From: Hyphomonadaceae bacterium
Lineage (GTDB): Bacteria > Pseudomonadota > Alphaproteobacteria > Caulobacterales > Aquidulcibacteraceae
Direction: 5' to 3'
Assembly: GCA_021731815.1 (NCBI GenBank)
Contig: JAKFWO010000016.1
Span: 1-49,062 of the forward strand
Length of the DNA: 49,062 nt
Shown here: positions 306-45,291 of the stretch, piece by piece
Layout: every line of letters starts with the position of its first letter
How positions within the stretch are numbered: the stretch's first letter is position 1
The notes under the pieces: generated by a model
Told to the model about the DNA's origin: nothing
Seen by the model: only the letters and a program-made list of their open reading frames with translations
Databases searched by the model: none
Made by a program: the position numbers and the translations under genes

Positions 306-659
306 ATGTCGCTAAAGATCCGGCTGGCCCGCCACGGGGCCAAGAAAAAGCCATATTATCACATCGTCGTGGCCGACAGCCGCTCCCCGCGCGACGGGCG
401 TTTCATTGAAAAGATCGGCCATTTCAACCCGATTCTTCCCAACGAAAATGCCGAACGGGTGAAGATCATCGAAGACAAAGCCAAGGAATGGCTCGCCAAA
501 GGCGCCCAGCCCACCGATCGCGTCGCGCGCTTTCTCGGGCAGATGGGAATCATCGACTGGAAGCACGGCAACAACCCGAACCGCGCCGAGCCCGGAAAAA
601 AGGCATTGGAGCGCGCAAAGGAAAAGGCCGACAAGGCCGCTTCCGCCGTCGAAGCGTAA
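306..659 (+). CDS. rpsP: Ribosomal protein bS16
   Basis: 117 residues. The N-terminus [18 protein letters not shown] and the following [18 protein letters not shown] block are diagnostic of bS16, a small-subunit protein that binds 16S rRNA early in 30S assembly. A clean Shine-Dalgarno (AGGAGAA, 294-300) fixes the ATG at 306. The protein is longer than the roughly 80-residue E. coli form because of a C-terminal Lys/Glu/Ala tail (from about residue 90), common in alphaproteobacteria. It lies between ffh and rimM. Confidence 0.97.
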
Positions 660-858: not shown

Positions 859-873
859 GCAAAGGACTATCCC

Positions 874-2778
874 TTGAACAACCGATCCGGGCCGCCCAAA
901 GGCCCTCGTGGCCCCTCCGGCCCGAAAGGCCCGCGTGGCCCCCGCAAATTCGATGACCGCCGTCCGGGCGGGTTTGGCGGCGGTGCCGGCGGCGGCGACC
1001 GTCCGTTCCGCGCGCGCGAAGACCGCGGCTTTGAAGACCGCCCGCGGCGCCCGCGCTTTGAGGATCGCGATGCCGGTCCCTCGGATCGGCCGGCGGGTGA
1101 GGCCCCGGCGGGAGATCGGCCCATGGGAGACCGGCCGCAAGGTGATCGGCCGCAAGGTGATCGGCCCATGGGGGATCGCCCCTATGGCGACCGCCCACGC
1201 AGCGACAGGCCCTATGGCGACCGCCCGCGCAGCGATCGCCCCTATGGCGACCGCCCGCGCAGCGATCGCCCCTATGGCGACCGCCCACGCAGCGATCGGC
1301 CTTATGGCGACCGCCCGCGCAGCGACAGGCCCTATGGCGACCGTCCGCGCAGCGATCGTCCCTATGGGGATCGCCCGCAAGGTGATCGGCCTTATGGGGA
1401 TCGCCCGCGTGGGGATCGGCCCTATGGCGACCGCCCGCGTGGGGATCGGCCCTATGGCGACCGCCCGCGTGGGGATCGGCCACAGGGTGATCGTCCTTAC
1501 GGCGACCGCCCGCGTGGCGACCGGCCACAGGGTGATCGTCCTTATGGCGACCGCCCACGGAGCGACCGGCCCTATGGCGACCGCCCACGCAGCGACCGGC
1601 CCTATGGCGACCGTCCAGGCGGGGATCGGCCGCGTGGCGACCGGCCCTATGGCGACCGTCCAGGCGGGGATCGGCCGCGACCCGAGAGCGCGGAGCGGCA
1701 ATGGGACAGCATGCGTTCCTTTTCCAGCGATGCCGACAAAAGCGGTCGCAGCGCCGACAAGCGGCCTGAACGGCCCGCGCGGCCGCGCGAGGCCGCACCT
1801 GAAACGGCTTTTGGTGCCGCGCAAATCGGGGCGGACGAAAAGCTCATTGTGGTGGCGGAAATTGCCGGCGCCTTCGGGGTCAAGGGCGAGGTGCGCCTGC
1901 GTGTGTTCACCGACGAGCCCGAGGCCGCTTTCCAATATGGACCGCTGCTGGATGGACTCGGCCGCGTCGTTCTCACTCCGGTCAAATGGCGCGCCCATGA
2001 GGGTGTCTATGTAGCGAACACCAGCGAGGAACGCAGCCGCGAATTCTGGGAAGGACTGAAGGGGCTGAAGCTGCATGTTCCGCGCGCCTCGCTGCCCGCA
2101 CTTGAGGACGGCGAGTATTATTTCGAGGACCTGATCGGGCTCGCCGTGGTTCACACCGACCAGCGCGCGCTCGGCAAGGTAATTGCCGTGCACAATTTCG
2201 GGGCGAGCGATCTTCTGGAGATTGCTGCAACTCCCGGTTTTGAGGCTGCCTGGTTCCTGCCTTATTCCGACGATTTCGACATGGAAATCGATCTGGCCGC
2301 CGGCACGATCATCGTCGATGCGCCGGAATCCTTCCTGCCCTTTGGCGAGGAAGAGGACGATGAACTCGATGAGGAATTGCTGGCTGAACTCGCGGCCGAA
2401 GAAGACGATTCCGAAAGCGGTGGGGACGAAGAAGACGACGAAGACGACGAAGACGATGTAGAAGATGAAGAAGATGAAGATGAAGAAGACGGTGATGAGG
2501 CGGGGGAAGACGATTTCGACGTGCTCGGTGACGGCGAAGAAGACGAGGACGAAGACGAGGACGAAGACGAAGACGAAGTCCCGGGGGCGGACGAGGACGA
2601 CGGAGAAGCAGAGGCCCCGCCGCCGGCAGCGCGTGCGAAAGCGGCGCCGGTTTCCGAACCGGCTCCGAAAAAGGCTGCGGCTGCAAAGAAGCCGAAGGCC
2701 GAAGTCGCGCCGACCTCTGACATCCCCGACGAAACGCCCGTCAAACCGGCGCGCAAACGCAAAAAGGCGGATGATTGA
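874..2778 (+). CDS. rimM: Ribosome maturation factor RimM with very large low-complexity extensions
   Basis: 634 residues, against about 165-180 for ordinary RimM. The start is TTG at 874, with an AAAGGA Shine-Dalgarno at 861-866; no ATG fits. Residues 1-315 are a disordered Arg/Asp/Pro/Gly segment that includes about 38 pentapeptides of the form x-G/S-D-R-P (residues 79-268). Residues about 320-490 are the RimM core: VAEIAGAFGVKGEVRLRVFT, then the PRC-barrel part EDGEYYFEDLIGLAV and SDLLEI. Residues 490-583 are a run of Asp/Glu, and residues 584-634 a Lys/Ala/Pro tail. RimM binds uS19 and helps mature the 30S head. The core looks intact, so the protein is probably functional. The two oppositely charged tails are unusual and may bind RNA or phase-separate (inference). 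The usual downstream trmD is absent. Confidence 0.93.
   Translation: MNNRSGPPKGPRGPSGPKGPRGPRKFDDRRPGGFGGGAGGGDRPFRAREDRGFEDRPRRPRFEDRDAGPSDRPAGEAPAGDRPMGDRPQGDRPQGDRPMGDRPYGDRPRSDRPYGDRPRSDRPYGDRPRSDRPYGDRPRSDRPYGDRPRSDRPYGDRPRSDRPYGDRPQGDRPYGDRPRGDRPYGDRPRGDRPYGDRPRGDRPQGDRPYGDRPRGDRPQGDRPYGDRPRSDRPYGDRPRSDRPYGDRPGGDRPRGDRPYGDRPGGDRPRPESAERQWDSMRSFSSDADKSGRSADKRPERPARPREAAPETAFGAAQIGADEKLIVVAEIAGAFGVKGEVRLRVFTDEPEAAFQYGPLLDGLGRVVLTPVKWRAHEGVYVANTSEERSREFWEGLKGLKLHVPRASLPALEDGEYYFEDLIGLAVVHTDQRALGKVIAVHNFGASDLLEIAATPGFEAAWFLPYSDDFDMEIDLAAGTIIVDAPESFLPFGEEEDDELDEELLAELAAEEDDSESGGDEEDDEDDEDDVEDEEDEDEEDGDEAGEDDFDVLGDGEEDEDEDEDEDEDEVPGADEDDGEAEAPPPAARAKAAPVSEPAPKKAAAAKKPKAEVAPTSDIPDETPVKPARKRKKADD
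1108..1677 (+). repeat. 15-bp in-frame minisatellite encoding DRP pentapeptides in rimM
   Basis: About 38 consecutive 15-bp units encode YGDRP, RSDRP, RGDRP, QGDRP, MGDRP and GGDRP. Alternating pairs (YGDRP then RSDRP) create a 30-bp higher-order period in the first half. Synonymous differences between units (gat/gac, cgg/cgc) show the array is not freshly amplified. It also produces long spurious open frames on the minus strand. Confidence 0.95.
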
Positions 2779-2786
2779 CCCGATTT

Positions 2787-2812
2787 CCGGGCCCGATACA
2801 TTTCGGGCCCGG
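2787..2812 (+). terminator. Rho-independent terminator of rimM
   Basis: Perfect 10-bp stem, CCGGGCCCGA (2787-2796) with TCGGGCCCGG (2803-2812), 6-nt loop TACATT, followed by AACCTTTTT. It begins 8 nt after the rimM stop. Confidence 0.85.
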
Positions 2813-2814
2813 AA

Positions 2815-2879
2815 CCTTTTTGGCCAGAATCCTTTGGGGCTAGAATCCTTTTGGGCCAGTATCCTTTTGGAGAGAGAAT
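2815..2879. repeat. 16-bp tandem array after rimM
   Basis: Four copies of a CCTTTTgGGCCAGAAT-like unit: 2815-2830, 2831-2846, 2847-2862, and a diverged 17-bp copy 2863-2879. The first copy overlaps the T-run of the rimM terminator. The GGCCAgAATC core resembles the arrays at 28408 and 34748. Confidence 0.85.
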
Positions 2880-2961: not shown

Positions 2962-3636
2962 CTATTCCCGACGCAGCACGCGGTCGACGATGAAATTTCC
3001 CAGCATTCCCGCGCGGTAATCGCGCTTGAGGGCGACCGGGTCATATTCGCTCGCCGCCCATTCGAGGAAGCTCAGGCCGCTTCTGGCAAAGGCGGCTTCA
3101 TAGGCGTCGCAAAAGGCGTCCAGCACGCCGGTCTTGCCAATCTTTATGTGCAGATAGCGCGCCGATAATTGCCTGCGGGCCTCGCTGAACGGCTGATTGA
3201 GCCGGAACAGGCAATACAGCAGGGCCCCCATGCCGGCGCGGTCTGCCCCGCTCTTGCAATGCATGAGTGCGGGATATTCGATGCGCTCAAACAGGTCGCG
3301 CGCGGCACGCAGGGTGGCGAGATCGGGCGGCTCGCGCGACAACAGGCGCAAATCCACCATATCGATGCCGTGGCTGGCGCAGGCCGCGCGCTCCAGCCGA
3401 TAATGGGCCGCCGTGCTCGGCCCGCGCAGATTGATCACGGTGCGGATCCCCTTGCGTGCGGCCCAGGCGATATCGCCCGGCGAGGGCTGGTTCATGCGCA
3501 GCATTTCGGGTGAAATGGCGTGCCGGTTCTTGAATATCAGGCGCAAAAACCCATGATCTTCGAACAAAAGCGCGCTATGGGCTCTCAACCGGGCGCCGGC
3601 GGTGGACAGCCCGGCACTCAAGGGTTCGATGGTCAT
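2962..3636 (-). CDS. Tyrosine/dual-specificity phosphatase family protein
   Basis: 224 residues. The active-site loop HCKSGADRAG matches the HCx5R signature of cysteine phosphatases (Cys127, Arg133), and MRMNQPSPGDIAWAARKGIR plus TVINLRG is the usual strand leading into the fold. No signal peptide is seen, so it is probably cytoplasmic. The start at 3636 is chosen over 3687 because ACGAGGACCCCCATG gives a GAGG ribosome site, and 3687 would overlap the divergent acyltransferase. It is divergent from the lipid A operon; the substrate (phosphotyrosine, phosphoinositide or other) cannot be told from sequence. Confidence 0.8.
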   Translation of the reverse strand: MTIEPLSAGLSTAGARLRAHSALLFEDHGFLRLIFKNRHAISPEMLRMNQPSPGDIAWAARKGIRTVINLRGPSTAAHYRLERAACASHGIDMVDLRLLSREPPDLATLRAARDLFERIEYPALMHCKSGADRAGMGALLYCLFRLNQPFSEARRQLSARYLHIKIGKTGVLDAFCDAYEAAFARSGLSFLEWAASEYDPVALKRDYRAGMLGNFIVDRVLRRE

Positions 3637-3686
3637 GGGGGTCCTCGTAGGATCGGTTCGGGGCTGCCGGCGGGAGAATTGTCTCA

Positions 3687-4406
3687 ATGCTCAAGGCGAT
3701 CCTCGCCCACGAAATTGTGCAGCAGGTTCTTGGCAGGACAATCGATCTCGCCTTGCGACTGCTCGCTGCCAGTATACGCTGGCACATCACGGGGCAAATG
3801 AATCTGGCGGCGGCGGCGCAGAGCGGGGCACCGGTGATTCTGTGCCTCTGGCATGGGCGCCTTGCCATGGCCCCGCAGATCTGGGCGGAGGCGGGTCCCT
3901 TGCGCGGGCTTTCAGCCGCCTTTGTGGTGTCGCGCTCGCGCGATGGAAATATCGGTGCCCGGATCGCCACCCGCCTGAACATCGCGCTTATCCGCGGTTC
4001 GGGTTCGAAGCCCGGAAACGGAAAGCGGAACAAGAGTGACAAAGGCGGGATGGACGCATTGATCGGGATGGTCGAACATCTGTCGGGCAAGGCCATTCTG
4101 GGCCTGACGCCGGATGGACCCCGCGGTCCCGCCCGGCAGGTGGGGCCGGCGCTGGTTTTGCTGGCCGAGCGCACGGGCGCGGTGATCGTGCCCGTGGCGT
4201 GGTCGGCACGGCGGGCGCGGCAGCTCAGGAGCTGGGACGGGTTTCTGCTGCCCTGGCCCTTCACCCGTGGTGCGATCTGTTTCGGTGCCCCGATCGCGCC
4301 AGTGCGGGGAGAGCGCAGCACCCGTGCGGCCCGCGGCCTCGGGATCGCAGCCGCCCTGGATGGGGTCACACGCGCCGCCGACGAATTCTGTGATCGCCGC
4401 GCATGA
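3687..4406 (+). CDS. DUF374-type lysophospholipid acyltransferase family protein
   Basis: 239 residues with an N-terminal hydrophobic stretch. CLWHGRLAMAP (His56) corresponds to the acyltransferase His block, and LTPDGPRGPARQVGP is the DUF374 signature. The family is usually encoded beside waaA and lpxK and is thought to act on membrane or lipid A precursors, but its reaction is not settled. It is the first gene of a four-gene operon: its TGA overlaps the waaA ATG (ATGA at 4403-4406). Confidence 0.85.
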   Translation: MLKAILAHEIVQQVLGRTIDLALRLLAASIRWHITGQMNLAAAAQSGAPVILCLWHGRLAMAPQIWAEAGPLRGLSAAFVVSRSRDGNIGARIATRLNIALIRGSGSKPGNGKRNKSDKGGMDALIGMVEHLSGKAILGLTPDGPRGPARQVGPALVLLAERTGAVIVPVAWSARRARQLRSWDGFLLPWPFTRGAICFGAPIAPVRGERSTRAARGLGIAAALDGVTRAADEFCDRRA

Positions 4407-11082: not shown

Positions 11083-11130
11083 GGGCGGGAGCGAAATCGG
11101 GCGGAGAGGAAATTGCGCGGGAGCGAAATT
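11083..11130. repeat. 16-bp tandem array between ispZ and recR
   Basis: Three 16-bp units: GGGCGGGAGCGAAATC (11083-11098), GGGCGGAGAGGAAATT (11099-11114), GCGCGGGAGCGAAATT (11115-11130). They lie in the leader between the divergent ispZ and recR genes. Confidence 0.8.
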
Positions 11131-11191
11131 GCGTTTGGCCGGCTTTGGGTTCAGGCTCTGGCGCAGTGACGAATCAGGCTTGGGTGTGAGG

Positions 11192-21274: not shown

Positions 21275-21758
21275 GGCTGCGTCCCTTCTGAGGGGGTGGA
21301 AGCGGCGGAACGTGGCAGGGACATCGGGGGCTATCCGGTTTGGAAAGGCAATGGGGTGGTTTTGGCGCATGGCCCCAGGAGAGCGATCACTCCCTGCCAT
21401 CGCAGAAATTGCGGTCGGGGAAAAGGGTGGCCGGAGAAAAGGGTGGCCGAGGAAAAGGGTGGCAGGGATCAAGAATTTCGCCATCAGGGGATTTGCCCCC
21501 GGATCGGCCCGCACCTTCCTGCCGATGCCCGGCCGTTTGAGAGATGGGAAATGCGAGGCGCGCAATCAAGCCCGGCCCTCGAATGCCCCGGGCGGGGGAT
21601 GCAACAACTCACCGGGCCAGCGCATTTTCATCAAAAGTGTAACCGCGGTCTTGTATGCGAAAATCCGCAGATTCAAATACCGGGAGCATCCACGAGGTGC
21701 CCATACTGGCCGGGATGGTTGCGTGGCCGGGTTTTCGTCCTTATAAGCCGCCTCCTGT
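21275..21758. other. Intergenic region, trxB promoter / tRNA-Pro promoter
   Basis: 484 bp with no convincing gene. It carries the 16-bp tandem array at 21421-21464. On the minus strand a reading frame runs through it in phase with trxB, but its composition is repetitive and trxB starts normally at 21274. Confidence 0.6.
21421..21464. repeat. 16-bp tandem array upstream of trxB
   Basis: Three AAAAGGGTGGCCGGAG-like units (21421-21436, 21437-21452, partial from 21453), about 150 bp upstream of the trxB start. Not linked to a stop codon. Confidence 0.85.
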
Positions 21759-27561: not shown

Positions 27562-27607
27562 AATCAGGGAAGTGGATCAGGGAAGTGGATCAGGGAAGTG
27601 GATCAGG
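27562..27607. repeat. 13-bp tandem array spanning the tRNA methyltransferase stop codon
   Basis: AGTGGATCAGGGA repeated about 3.5 times (partial 27562-27570, then 27571-27583, 27584-27596, 27597-27607). Read on the minus strand each unit holds TGA. The true stop is 27592-27590, followed by TGA at 27579 and 27566, so all three frames are closed. Confidence 0.92.
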
Positions 27608-34598: not shown

Positions 34599-34747
34599 CA
34601 GGAAATTCCGGTGGATTCAGAAGGATTGCTGCCCTCGAAACGGGGCAGGGGCGGGGCATAGGCCAGACTTCGCCCGAATGGAAGCCTTTTGCCGGGATTT
34701 GGAGCAGGTCAATGACGGCTCTGCCCGAATCCTCGCCGAATGGGCCA

Positions 34748-34811
34748 AATCATTTGGCCCGAATCATTTGGCCCGAATCAATTGGCCCGAATCAATTGGC
34801 AAGAATCATTC
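34748..34811. repeat. 14-bp tandem array spanning the acyl-CoA dehydrogenase stop codon
   Basis: AATCATTTGGCCCG-like units at exact 14-bp spacing (AATC at 34748, 34762, 34776, 34790, 34804). On the minus strand each holds TGA; the gene stop (34808-34806) is the first of five, falling in all three frames. Confidence 0.93.
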
Positions 34812-41011: not shown

Positions 41012-41118
41012 ATTTGCGCAATGCCTTGGCCGTTTCCTCGACCTGACACATTTTCAACGCACTGATGCGCATTCGGACGAGAACCGGATCAGGTTTCGGA
41101 TTAGTCTATGTCCCTGCT

Positions 41119-41210
41119 CATATTGGGTCCCTGCTCATATTGGGTCCCTGCGCATATTGGGTCCCTGCGCATATTGGGTCCCTGCGCATATTGGGTCCCG
41201 CGCATTTTGG
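41119..41210. repeat. 17-bp tandem array between the two vWA genes
   Basis: CATATTGGGTCCCTGCT/G repeated about 5.5 times (units start at 41119, 41136, 41153, 41170, 41187, with a partial CATTTTGG at 41203). It lies about 60 bp beyond the copy-2 stop. Units are nearly identical, so the array is young. Confidence 0.95.
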
Positions 41211-43204: not shown

Positions 43205-43348
43205 CCCCGAAATCCAATCGGATCAGGCTGGTTCCGCCATTGGTCCGGCGTCATTTTCATCACCGGATTTGCAATGGCGAAGGGCAAAGAACGAAGATCG
43301 CCGGCATGACCGGGAACATCACCATCTTCTACTGCCTCATGCCCCCGA

Positions 43349-43402
43349 ACGGCCCGGAAACGGCCCGGAAACGGCCGGAAACGGCCCGGAAAACGGCCGG
43401 AA
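43349..43402. repeat. 11-bp tandem array upstream of ftsZ
   Basis: ACGGCCCGGAA repeated about five times with 10- and 11-bp variants, between vWA copy 2 and ftsZ. A period near one helical turn. Not at a gene end. Confidence 0.9.
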
Positions 43403-43918
43403 ACGGAAAGGCCGCGCCAATCGCAGGTGTGAGTGGCTTTCCCCGCTTCCCCGTCCGTCGCCAGGAAATCGCGGGAATGTGGCGGTGGCCCACTGACGGA
43501 GTCAGAAATTCAGCCGGTGCGAATTCCGTCCAGGCGATTCCTGACCAAATTGCTAATCCTTTCTTGACGCACCGGGCTGTAACGAAGAGAATTGCGATCG
43601 CTTCAGCCCAAATCTGATTGTTGATCACGAAAATATTCGGGATTGGGCAAAGGGGTCCCGATACAAGGATCCGCGGCGTCTCGTTCGAGGACATTCGAGG
43701 ACAGGTAATCGCAGAACGCCCTGCGCGATAACCACTACTGGTTGAGGCGCTTGGCGACATGCCGATTCGGCGTCATGTTGCGCTGACCAGCCGGGGGATT
43801 CGGCCGAAAAACCGCCTGGCCGCCGCGGTTTCGCCACATCTGCATTATCTGCTGCTTGACGGCGCACGAATTGCCCGCGAAAGCGGGTTCGGATGAACAC
43901 CAACAGATTGGGAATTCC

Positions 43919-45265
43919 ATGCCTGAACTGAATTACTCCCAGCGGATCGTGGTGATTGGCGTTGGTGGCGCGGGCGGCAATGCCGTGAACAACATGATCG
44001 CGTCCGACATCAAGGGCGTGGAATTCGTGGCGGCCAATACCGATTATCAGGCGCTGCAGGCGGCCAATGCCCCGGTCAAAATCCAGTTGGGAACCAGCCT
44101 GACCGGCGGCCGCGGGGCGGGCATGAATCCGGAAATCGGACAGCGCGCCGCCGAAGAAAGCGCTGCCGAGATCGAGGCCCTGGTCAAGGGTGCCGACATG
44201 GTCTTCGTTGCCGCCGGAATGGGCGGCGGTACCGGCACGGGGGCAGCTCCCATTGTCGCACGGATCGCGCGCGCCTCGGGTGCGCTGACTGTGGCGGTGG
44301 TAACCAAACCCTTCGGATTTGAAGGCTCGAGGCGCGCGGCCTATGCCGAGCAAGGGGTCGAGGACATCCGGGGCCATGTCGATGCCCTGATCGTCATTCC
44401 CAACCAGAATTTGCTGCGACTGGCTTCCGCCCAACTGACCGTCGCCAAGGCCTTTCAGCTCGCCGACAATGTGTTGCAGCAGGGCGTGCGGGGGATCACC
44501 GATCTCGTCACTTTGCCCGGGCTGATCAATCTCGATTTTGCCGATGTGCGCACGGTGATGACCGATATGGGTCACGCCTTGATGGGCACGGGCGAGGCCG
44601 AGGGCGATAACCGCGCCGTGGAAGCCGCCCGTTTGGCGATTGCCAATCCGCTGCTCGACGATCTGGCGCTCGAGGGCGCACGCGGGCTGCTCATCAATAT
44701 TTCGGGAGGCGAGGATCTTTCGCTGATGGAAGTCGACCAGGCGGCCAATTTCATTCGCGACCTCGTGAAAACTGAATCGACCATCATTTTCGGCGCGGCC
44801 CTGTCGCCGGAACTGACCGGCCGCGTGCGGGTGTCGGTGGTTGCAGCGGGGCTCCGTCAGCAGGCACTTCCGGTTCCCGCGGCTGAAACGGTATCGGTTC
44901 CGGTTGCTGCGCGGGAGATCATCGAACCTGCGGAGGCCCCTGCCGCGCGCAGACCGCTCATCGTCACCCATCCGGTGGAAGAGCCCGAGGCCTTCGAGGA
45001 CGAGCCCGAGGAAGGCGATTACGGGGCCGACGAGACTCTACCGCCCGTCGCGCCCACGCTCTCGGCGATGTTTGGGGCGGCAGGCACCCTGATGGGCGGC
45101 AACCGGCTGGGTGTTTCGAGTTTCGCCGCCGATTCCGCGCCGGCCGAAGGGGACAATTCAGCCAGCACCGCCGAGGAAAAGCCCGCGAATCCGGCGCCCG
45201 AGCGGGCAGATGCTTCCGATGAGCTCGAGATTCCGGCGTTCCTGCGCCGGACTTTTAAACATTAA
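43919..45265 (+). CDS. ftsZ: Cell division GTPase FtsZ (isolated locus)
   Basis: 448 residues. VIGVGGAGGNAVNNMI, the tubulin signature AGMGGGTGTGAAPIVA, ALIVIPNQNLLRL, the T7 loop PGLINLDFADVRTVM (catalytic Asp) and LLINISGGEDLSLMEVD are all present. An acidic/Pro-rich linker (about residues 325-435) leads to the C-terminal peptide DELEIPAFLRR that binds FtsA and other partners. The T3 loop reads GGRGAGMNPEIG where most FtsZ have GLGAGANPEVG. It polymerises into the Z-ring. No ftsQ/ftsA lie upstream, so this is either a relocated single gene or a second ftsZ. The stop lies in a 14-bp array. Confidence 0.95.
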   Translation: MPELNYSQRIVVIGVGGAGGNAVNNMIASDIKGVEFVAANTDYQALQAANAPVKIQLGTSLTGGRGAGMNPEIGQRAAEESAAEIEALVKGADMVFVAAGMGGGTGTGAAPIVARIARASGALTVAVVTKPFGFEGSRRAAYAEQGVEDIRGHVDALIVIPNQNLLRLASAQLTVAKAFQLADNVLQQGVRGITDLVTLPGLINLDFADVRTVMTDMGHALMGTGEAEGDNRAVEAARLAIANPLLDDLALEGARGLLINISGGEDLSLMEVDQAANFIRDLVKTESTIIFGAALSPELTGRVRVSVVAAGLRQQALPVPAAETVSVPVAAREIIEPAEAPAARRPLIVTHPVEEPEAFEDEPEEGDYGADETLPPVAPTLSAMFGAAGTLMGGNRLGVSSFAADSAPAEGDNSASTAEEKPANPAPERADASDELEIPAFLRRTFKH

Positions 45266-45291
45266 CGGGCAAACATTAACGGGCAAACATT
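45257..45291. repeat. 14-bp tandem array spanning the ftsZ stop codon
   Basis: AAACATTAACGGGC (45257-45270), again at 45271-45284, and AAACATT at 45285. The ftsZ stop TAA (45263-45265) is in the first unit and is repeated at 45277-45279 in another frame. The array also encodes the last residues of FtsZ (KH). Confidence 0.92.

Follow-up and report, generated by a model that had tools for sequence, protein, structure and literature searches.

The window analysed here is a stretch of 49,062 nucleotides that starts at the first base of its contig, in a genome of 2.53 Mb (48 contigs, 99.8% complete). Near this contig edge lies rpsP (306..659, forward strand), which encodes ribosomal protein S16 (PF00886, 98.6 bits; TIGR00002, 103 bits), and 214 nt behind it the gene that concerns us, rimM (874..2778, forward strand)—a complete open reading frame of 634 residues, about 70 kDa, that begins with TTG. 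A Shine-Dalgarno-like AAAGGA can be read from the sequence at 861..866 on the same strand, 7 nt upstream of TTG 874. Directly 3' of rimM, a consensus match on the forward strand marks an intrinsic-terminator-like hairpin of 12 pairs with a T tail (2785..2824; there are seven such matches in the region against 3.5 expected), and the next gene examined, which is phosphatase-like (2962-3687), lies on the strand opposite to rimM. Given the hairpin behind the stop codon and the opposite orientation of this neighbour, rimM is probably the last gene of its transcription unit. Unlike the window, three loci of genus g11, from the same family, have trmD-like motifs 3' of rimM.

By all sequence tests made, length excepted, the protein is a genuine single-copy RimM. 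It scores 119.2 bits against the equivalog TIGR02273 (cut-off 66.2), its domains PF01782 (46.0 bits) and PF24986 (44.2 bits) both lie above cut-off, and it is the genome's sole RimM, encoded 3' of rpsP. The nearest solved structures of the core are 2f1l, which is the closest, and 3h9n; its two named relatives, at 42-46% identity, come from an Alphaproteobacteria and a Sphingomonadales metagenome bin, from which an alphaproteobacterial source can be guessed at. The PRC barrel holds an EYY motif (residues 414-416) that is invariant in an alignment of three rows; it is probably the equivalent of the Tyr-Tyr that E. coli RimM needs for 30S binding. Compared with standard RimM (TIGR02273; 2f1l, 3h9n), the protein has the same two domains, the same single copy behind rpsP and the EYY motif, but it adds about 320 N-terminal and 148 C-terminal residues; a compact two-domain size of 170-220 residues, which is typical of RimM rather than defining, is thus not found in this protein of 634. 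RimM stabilises the 16S rRNA head domain and acts alongside S19, which it binds through its PRC barrel (PMC9032327, section 2.6).

From its N-terminus, the protein consists of an R/G/P/D-rich leader read from the translation (residues 1-80; 874..1113), an array of 38 consecutive DRPxx pentads in exact and unbroken five-residue register (81-270; 1114..1683), a linker that holds ATG 1711 at codon 280 (271-321; 1684..1836), the RimM core with its N-terminal domain PF01782 and PRC barrel PF24986 (322-486; 1837..2331), an acidic tail (487-581; 2332..2616), and a K/A/P-rich end (582-634; 2617..2775), all on the forward strand. A sequence-only reading of this DNA had proposed a single frame from 874 to 2778 with 38 DRP pentapeptides on a RimM, and these coordinates are exact, from TTG to stop; the Arg/Asp-rich extension that it described is there as well, with a length of about 321 residues rather than 315, and with an array that covers 190 of them. 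The pentads comprise 15 DRPYG, 8 DRPRS, 5 DRPQG, 5 DRPRG, 2 DRPMG, 2 DRPGG and 1 DRPRP; there are 41 DRP tripeptides in the protein, 38 of them in the register of the array.

The charge of these segments agrees only in part with the sequence-only reading. The array contains 14 RPR and 15 Tyr, with 52 positive and 38 negative residues, for a net charge of +14 over 190 residues, and the whole N-terminal extension has a net charge of +20 over 321 residues—close to a balanced polyampholyte, not a basic block. The picture of alternating charge blocks therefore suits mainly the acidic tail, the DRP arm being nearly neutral. The acidic tail has 63 D/E in 95 residues and lacks K/R altogether; it is an acidic region of the expected size, but not the unbroken run of 94 Asp/Glu that had been described, since its longest pure D/E stretch is 14. 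The Lys-rich basic end turns out to be mildly basic, with a net charge of +6 over its 53 residues.

In the disorder check that had been suggested, charge-hydropathy analysis places every extension segment on the disordered side of the boundary, but not the core. A real RimM core is flanked at both ends by low-complexity charged arms. AlphaFold, run on an alignment of three rows, gave a mean pLDDT of 42.8 with the core only partly modelled; an alignment this shallow makes such low confidence weak evidence for disorder. In the model, residues 1-321 have no secondary structure, and the acidic tail has one helix (498-508). A Pfam match to Extensin_1 at residues 72-184 (23 bits, far below the cut-off of 105) was set aside as low complexity. 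With its two disordered arms this RimM reaches about 70 kDa, against 21 kDa for the small two-domain protein of E. coli (PMC9032327, section 2.6).

The DNA of the array indicates that the repeat arm is translated. The frame is open into the core, the 38 repeat units occur in 26 distinct DNA versions that give only seven peptide versions, and the differences between units i and i+2 fall 22/13/85 at codon positions 1/2/3—a third-position bias as expected of coding sequence. D, R and P are invariant in 38/38 pentads. In the coding frame, three of five columns are invariant across the array and stops are absent; a frame on the minus strand comes close to this regularity, with two invariant columns, but it contains 15 stops, and the other four frames are irregular. 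An assembly or frameshift artefact might be suspected in a repetitive array of a gene near a contig edge, but its 38 units, in 26 distinct versions, measure exactly 15 bp each and so keep the frame, which then runs on into the core with no stop between; this makes the explanation very improbable.

The distribution of start codons, which also bears on translation of the arm, limits where else RimM could begin. ATG, GTG and TTG are absent from codon 281 through 325; a compact RimM started beside the core is therefore not encoded, nor is initiation near residue 315, the point at which the sequence-only reading had considered a possible internal start. A start at GTG codon 326 or 327 would remove part of the first core strand (324-333 in the AlphaFold model), and ATG 1123 and ATG 1168 (codons 84 and 99), both with purine-rich bases upstream, would retain most of the array. 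This leaves ATG 1711 as the only ATG, GTG or TTG between array and core, and a start there, or clipping, would yield a near-normal RimM with an acidic tail, with the arm rarely made or else removed. E. coli offers a parallel in its three IF-2 isoforms, whose disordered region varies in length (PMC11838494); however, TTG 874 has a well-placed Shine-Dalgarno-like site and the third-position bias along the array indicates translation, so we regard an arm that is seldom present as improbable.

The arm was then compared with RimM of related genomes. Relatives with a DRP-armed RimM, for which a search had been proposed, were not found among the sampled family, order and class genomes; this genome is the only one in which a DRP-armed RimM is known, the relatives sampled all belonging to other genera. 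In the family, 57/60 genomes have a RimM match, and the core nearest to the window's by identity (G008, 50%) is compact, at 172 codons. The class sample has a RimM match in 134/144 genomes, among which the window frame is the longest (669 codons stop to stop). The ten next-longest class frames (all >295 codons) and six shorter ones were read and none is repeat-armed, and the four long order-level frames read, among the matches listed, have no DRP repeats. On reading, the N-terminal stretches of many long RimM frames proved to be rpsP in the wrong frame, and others were not recognisable as coding. Among individual loci, L095 has RimM and, by reading, TrmD in a single frame of 486 codons, and L104 may carry a basic leader, some 75 residues long, before RimM.

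Long N-terminal arms as such are not restricted to the window. In genus g11, RimM is matched in 28/30 genomes, 27 of them with frames of 383-472 codons and one of 101 codons, and the N-terminal arms are Lys/Ala/Pro-rich (8 + 15 loci read, in overlapping sets; examples are L033, L034 and L036). In the 13 loci measured, these arms span 249-305 residues, counted from the upstream stop, with a net charge of +41 to +59; TTG or GTG lies no more than about 10 nt from the rpsP stop in 13/15 loci, and most differences between genome pairs fall at third codon positions in 5/5 pairs. By these signs the g11 arm also looks translated and constrained. It resembles the arm in the window in being N-terminal, of low complexity and of similar length, but it is strongly basic where the window arm is near charge balance, it has no DRP, and the 13 measured loci lack the acidic tail. 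Among the genomes sampled, it is the DRP arm that this genome alone has on RimM, and not a long N-terminal arm as such, of which g11 has another kind.

A shared origin of the two arms was considered and rejected, as the window is placed apart from g11 and a one-clade constraint is weakly disfavoured. The clade of window and g11 had an AU p of 0.062 in a first RimM tree of 52 rows, which included the wrong-frame row L075, and 0.032 in a second with L075 removed and S16 added (37/51 rows, the others gapped); the window is a long branch in these trees, so its placement is weak evidence. Borrowing of the DRP arm from another protein was likewise rejected—residues 1-80, the linker and the C-terminal tail have no blastp match at E<=1e-3 against the frames, of 80 codons or more, of the fetched loci. 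A third kind of addition occurs in genus g8, where DUF559 stands in frame before RimM in 2/3 genomes (L013:931-1989, forward strand; L029:1228-2340, reverse strand). In both loci it lies between rpsP and RimM with no ATG, GTG or TTG from the end of the DUF559 match to the core, which makes an apparent DUF559-RimM fusion. To judge by these loci, the RimM N-terminus seems to have gained extensions on more than one occasion in the family, from different material each time; in this one bacterial family at least three distinct kinds of segment precede the RimM core.

The repeats themselves are better represented on other proteins. The repeat segment was searched against 60 family genomes (E<=1e-8), 144 class genomes (1e-10), 387 class genomes (1e-14) and 398 order genomes (1e-14), in samples that overlap and that all include the window's genome. 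Most genomes have no DRP match; those that do, the window's own included, number 10/60, 9/144, 14/387 and 11/398. At least 34 other genes have at least four DRP, not necessarily consecutive, in their matched or most DRP-rich frame—a lower bound, since for the 398 order and 387 class genomes at most eight candidates per genome were scored, and one that uses a four-DRP limit chosen after the matches were known. RNA or translation proteins make up 32/34 of these carriers, as assigned through Pfam or, in the case of five DEAD helicases, through near-identity with a scanned one. They are 14 DEAD-box helicases, with the repeats in the C-terminal tail (including seven cases in genus g5 with 4-9 DRP each), 7 IF-2 with 15-24 DRP N-terminal to the G domain (L127, L128, L130, L136, L142, L145, L152), 5 S4/pseudouridine synthases, 3 cold-shock-domain proteins and 2 RsmB/F methyltransferases, with N-terminal repeats in both kinds, and 1 Suv3-like helicase. 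The remaining carriers are L135, which by reading has a lipoprotein-like leader, and L155, which has no Pfam match; none of the 34 is a RimM. Part of this proportion of 32/34 may reflect how often any Arg-rich repeat falls on RNA proteins, and many of the carriers are mutual orthologues, so that, counted independently, the evidence comes closer to six kinds of RNA protein set beside two unknowns.

Several matches were dropped from this count: L047 and L048, which are the window's own gene (one antisense, one a low-scoring match); L049, in the own genome, with TGA in the matched frame; L088, whose matched frame has 3 TGA; L129, a 2-oxoacid dehydrogenase with DQP repeats; L131, a pseudouridine synthase with 1 DRP; L132, ribosomal protein S2, with a C-terminal tail of DKPRG/DKPRS repeats; L133, with 1 DRP and no family; and L137, a subtilase with 0 DRP. 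The own genome matches only in L047, L048 and L049 and has no further accepted DRP gene outside rimM. Its DEAD-box helicase L115 (contig C13) has a charged tail of different sequence, RSARPESKARSESKARSESKAK.

With 38 pentads on a RimM core, the window protein is a fitting member of a grouping that its sequence suggests, the DRP-tailed RNA proteins of the class. The repeat type is already present in the class and what is new is its place on RimM; within the samples searched, the architecture is new for this protein. The titles and abstract openings of the best matches in the literature searched describe neither long-armed RimM nor DRP arrays. An RNA-related role, as the sequence-only reading had suggested, is plausible because RNA or translation proteins account for 32/34 of the other carriers of four or more DRP.

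The main rival is that the arm is a tolerated expansion, in which slippage lengthened a short Arg/Asp/Pro leader and RimM works despite a functionless arm. At the DNA level the array indeed has a 30-bp period with 82% matches and 15.7 copies, DRP on RimM is confined to this genome among the 60 family genomes and the order and class samples, and RimM takes up unrelated material at its N-terminus, such as DUF559 in two genomes of g8. An S16-RimM hybrid reportedly keeps both functions in E. coli (reference 99 of PMC9032327), which we also count in favour of a tolerated expansion. On the other hand, the third-position bias and the unchanged D, R and P of all 38 copies suggest constraint on the peptide since duplication—a signal that recent homogenisation could yield in part—and multi-DRP genes mostly encode RNA proteins (32/34). 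We consider a functionless arm a possible but somewhat doubtful explanation.

We favour a reading, with a probability of about one half, in which a working RimM carries a disordered RNA-contact arm of a kind that recurs in the class, together with an acidic arm, and so probably raises its dwell time on pre-30S RNA. The architecture, the coding nature of the array and the pattern of carriers are observed; RNA contact and the roles of the two tails are inferred. The folded core would do the ordinary job of RimM in helping S19 and the 16S head domain, while the DRP arm would make weak multivalent contacts with rRNA through Arg and Tyr that keep RimM near the nascent pre-30S. The acidic tail would most likely oppose the arm by shielding it, or the client S19, and by aiding release, like the acidic tip of Hfq. 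Points against the favoured reading are that the arm is nearly charge-neutral, that it is known from one genome, and that 2/34 carriers are not recognisable RNA proteins; the long-armed g11 loci, 13 of them measured, count against a conserved pair of arms, as they have no acidic tail.

Known systems provide partial parallels for each arm. Loc1p and other PUN-motif proteins also join disordered repeats to a ribosome-biogenesis factor (PMC11662656); however, PUN motifs are basic, whereas DRP pentads have one Asp each, with 14 RPR and a net charge of +14 over 190 residues. Acidic residues close to the basic motifs of Loc1p reduced its affinity for RNA (same source); given this and the one Asp per pentad, modest RNA tethering seems to us likelier than strong binding or condensation. 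The acidic C-terminal domain of Hfq, which autoregulates RNA binding (PMC5606850), is likewise an acidic disordered tail on an RNA chaperone; the core protein is different, and the likeness drawn here is one of architecture. DRP-bearing IF-2 likewise has its repeats N-terminal in a translation factor that acts on the 30S, but IF-2 is a GTPase of unrelated fold and most of these proteins mix DRP with other units. The N-terminal disordered region drives phase separation of purified E. coli and C. crescentus IF-2 with RNA, more strongly in the cold for the E. coli protein (PMC11838494, a preprint). Condensate formation by the armed RimM is possible and is the least certain step.

In a different division of labour, what is functionally new would lie in the acidic tail, as an S19 chaperone built into RimM, and the DRP arm would be a solubility spacer. 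With 63 D/E in 95 residues, the tail directly follows the PRC barrel, which in RimM binds S19 (PMC9032327, section 2.6), and the RimM of G013 (genus g14; L042) is also acidic-tailed. However, with L042 excepted, the family RimM tails examined are <=31 residues, so S19 handling needs no such tail, and we think this division of labour unlikely. A wider proposal sees DRP arrays as a common tag of the RNA machinery in the class, able to pass from one protein to another, which would gather factors with nascent rRNA in a nucleolus-like zone, with the acidic RimM tail as a release switch. It would cover DEAD helicase, IF-2, pseudouridine synthase, RsmB/F, cold-shock protein and RimM together, and we regard it as a long shot.

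Should the arm of the favoured reading contact RNA, this RimM would be a natural experiment in how a disordered tail tunes 30S assembly. The recurrence of a single repeat type across six kinds of RNA protein also gives a concrete sequence-level entry point to bacterial RNA condensates. Elsewhere in the window there are short tandem arrays, their units 11-17 bp long, at 2815-2881—adjoining the 3' side of the terminator-like hairpin of rimM—and at 11085-11133, 21416-21467, 27563-27607, 34741-34810, 41110-41210, 43348-43406 and 45257-45291.
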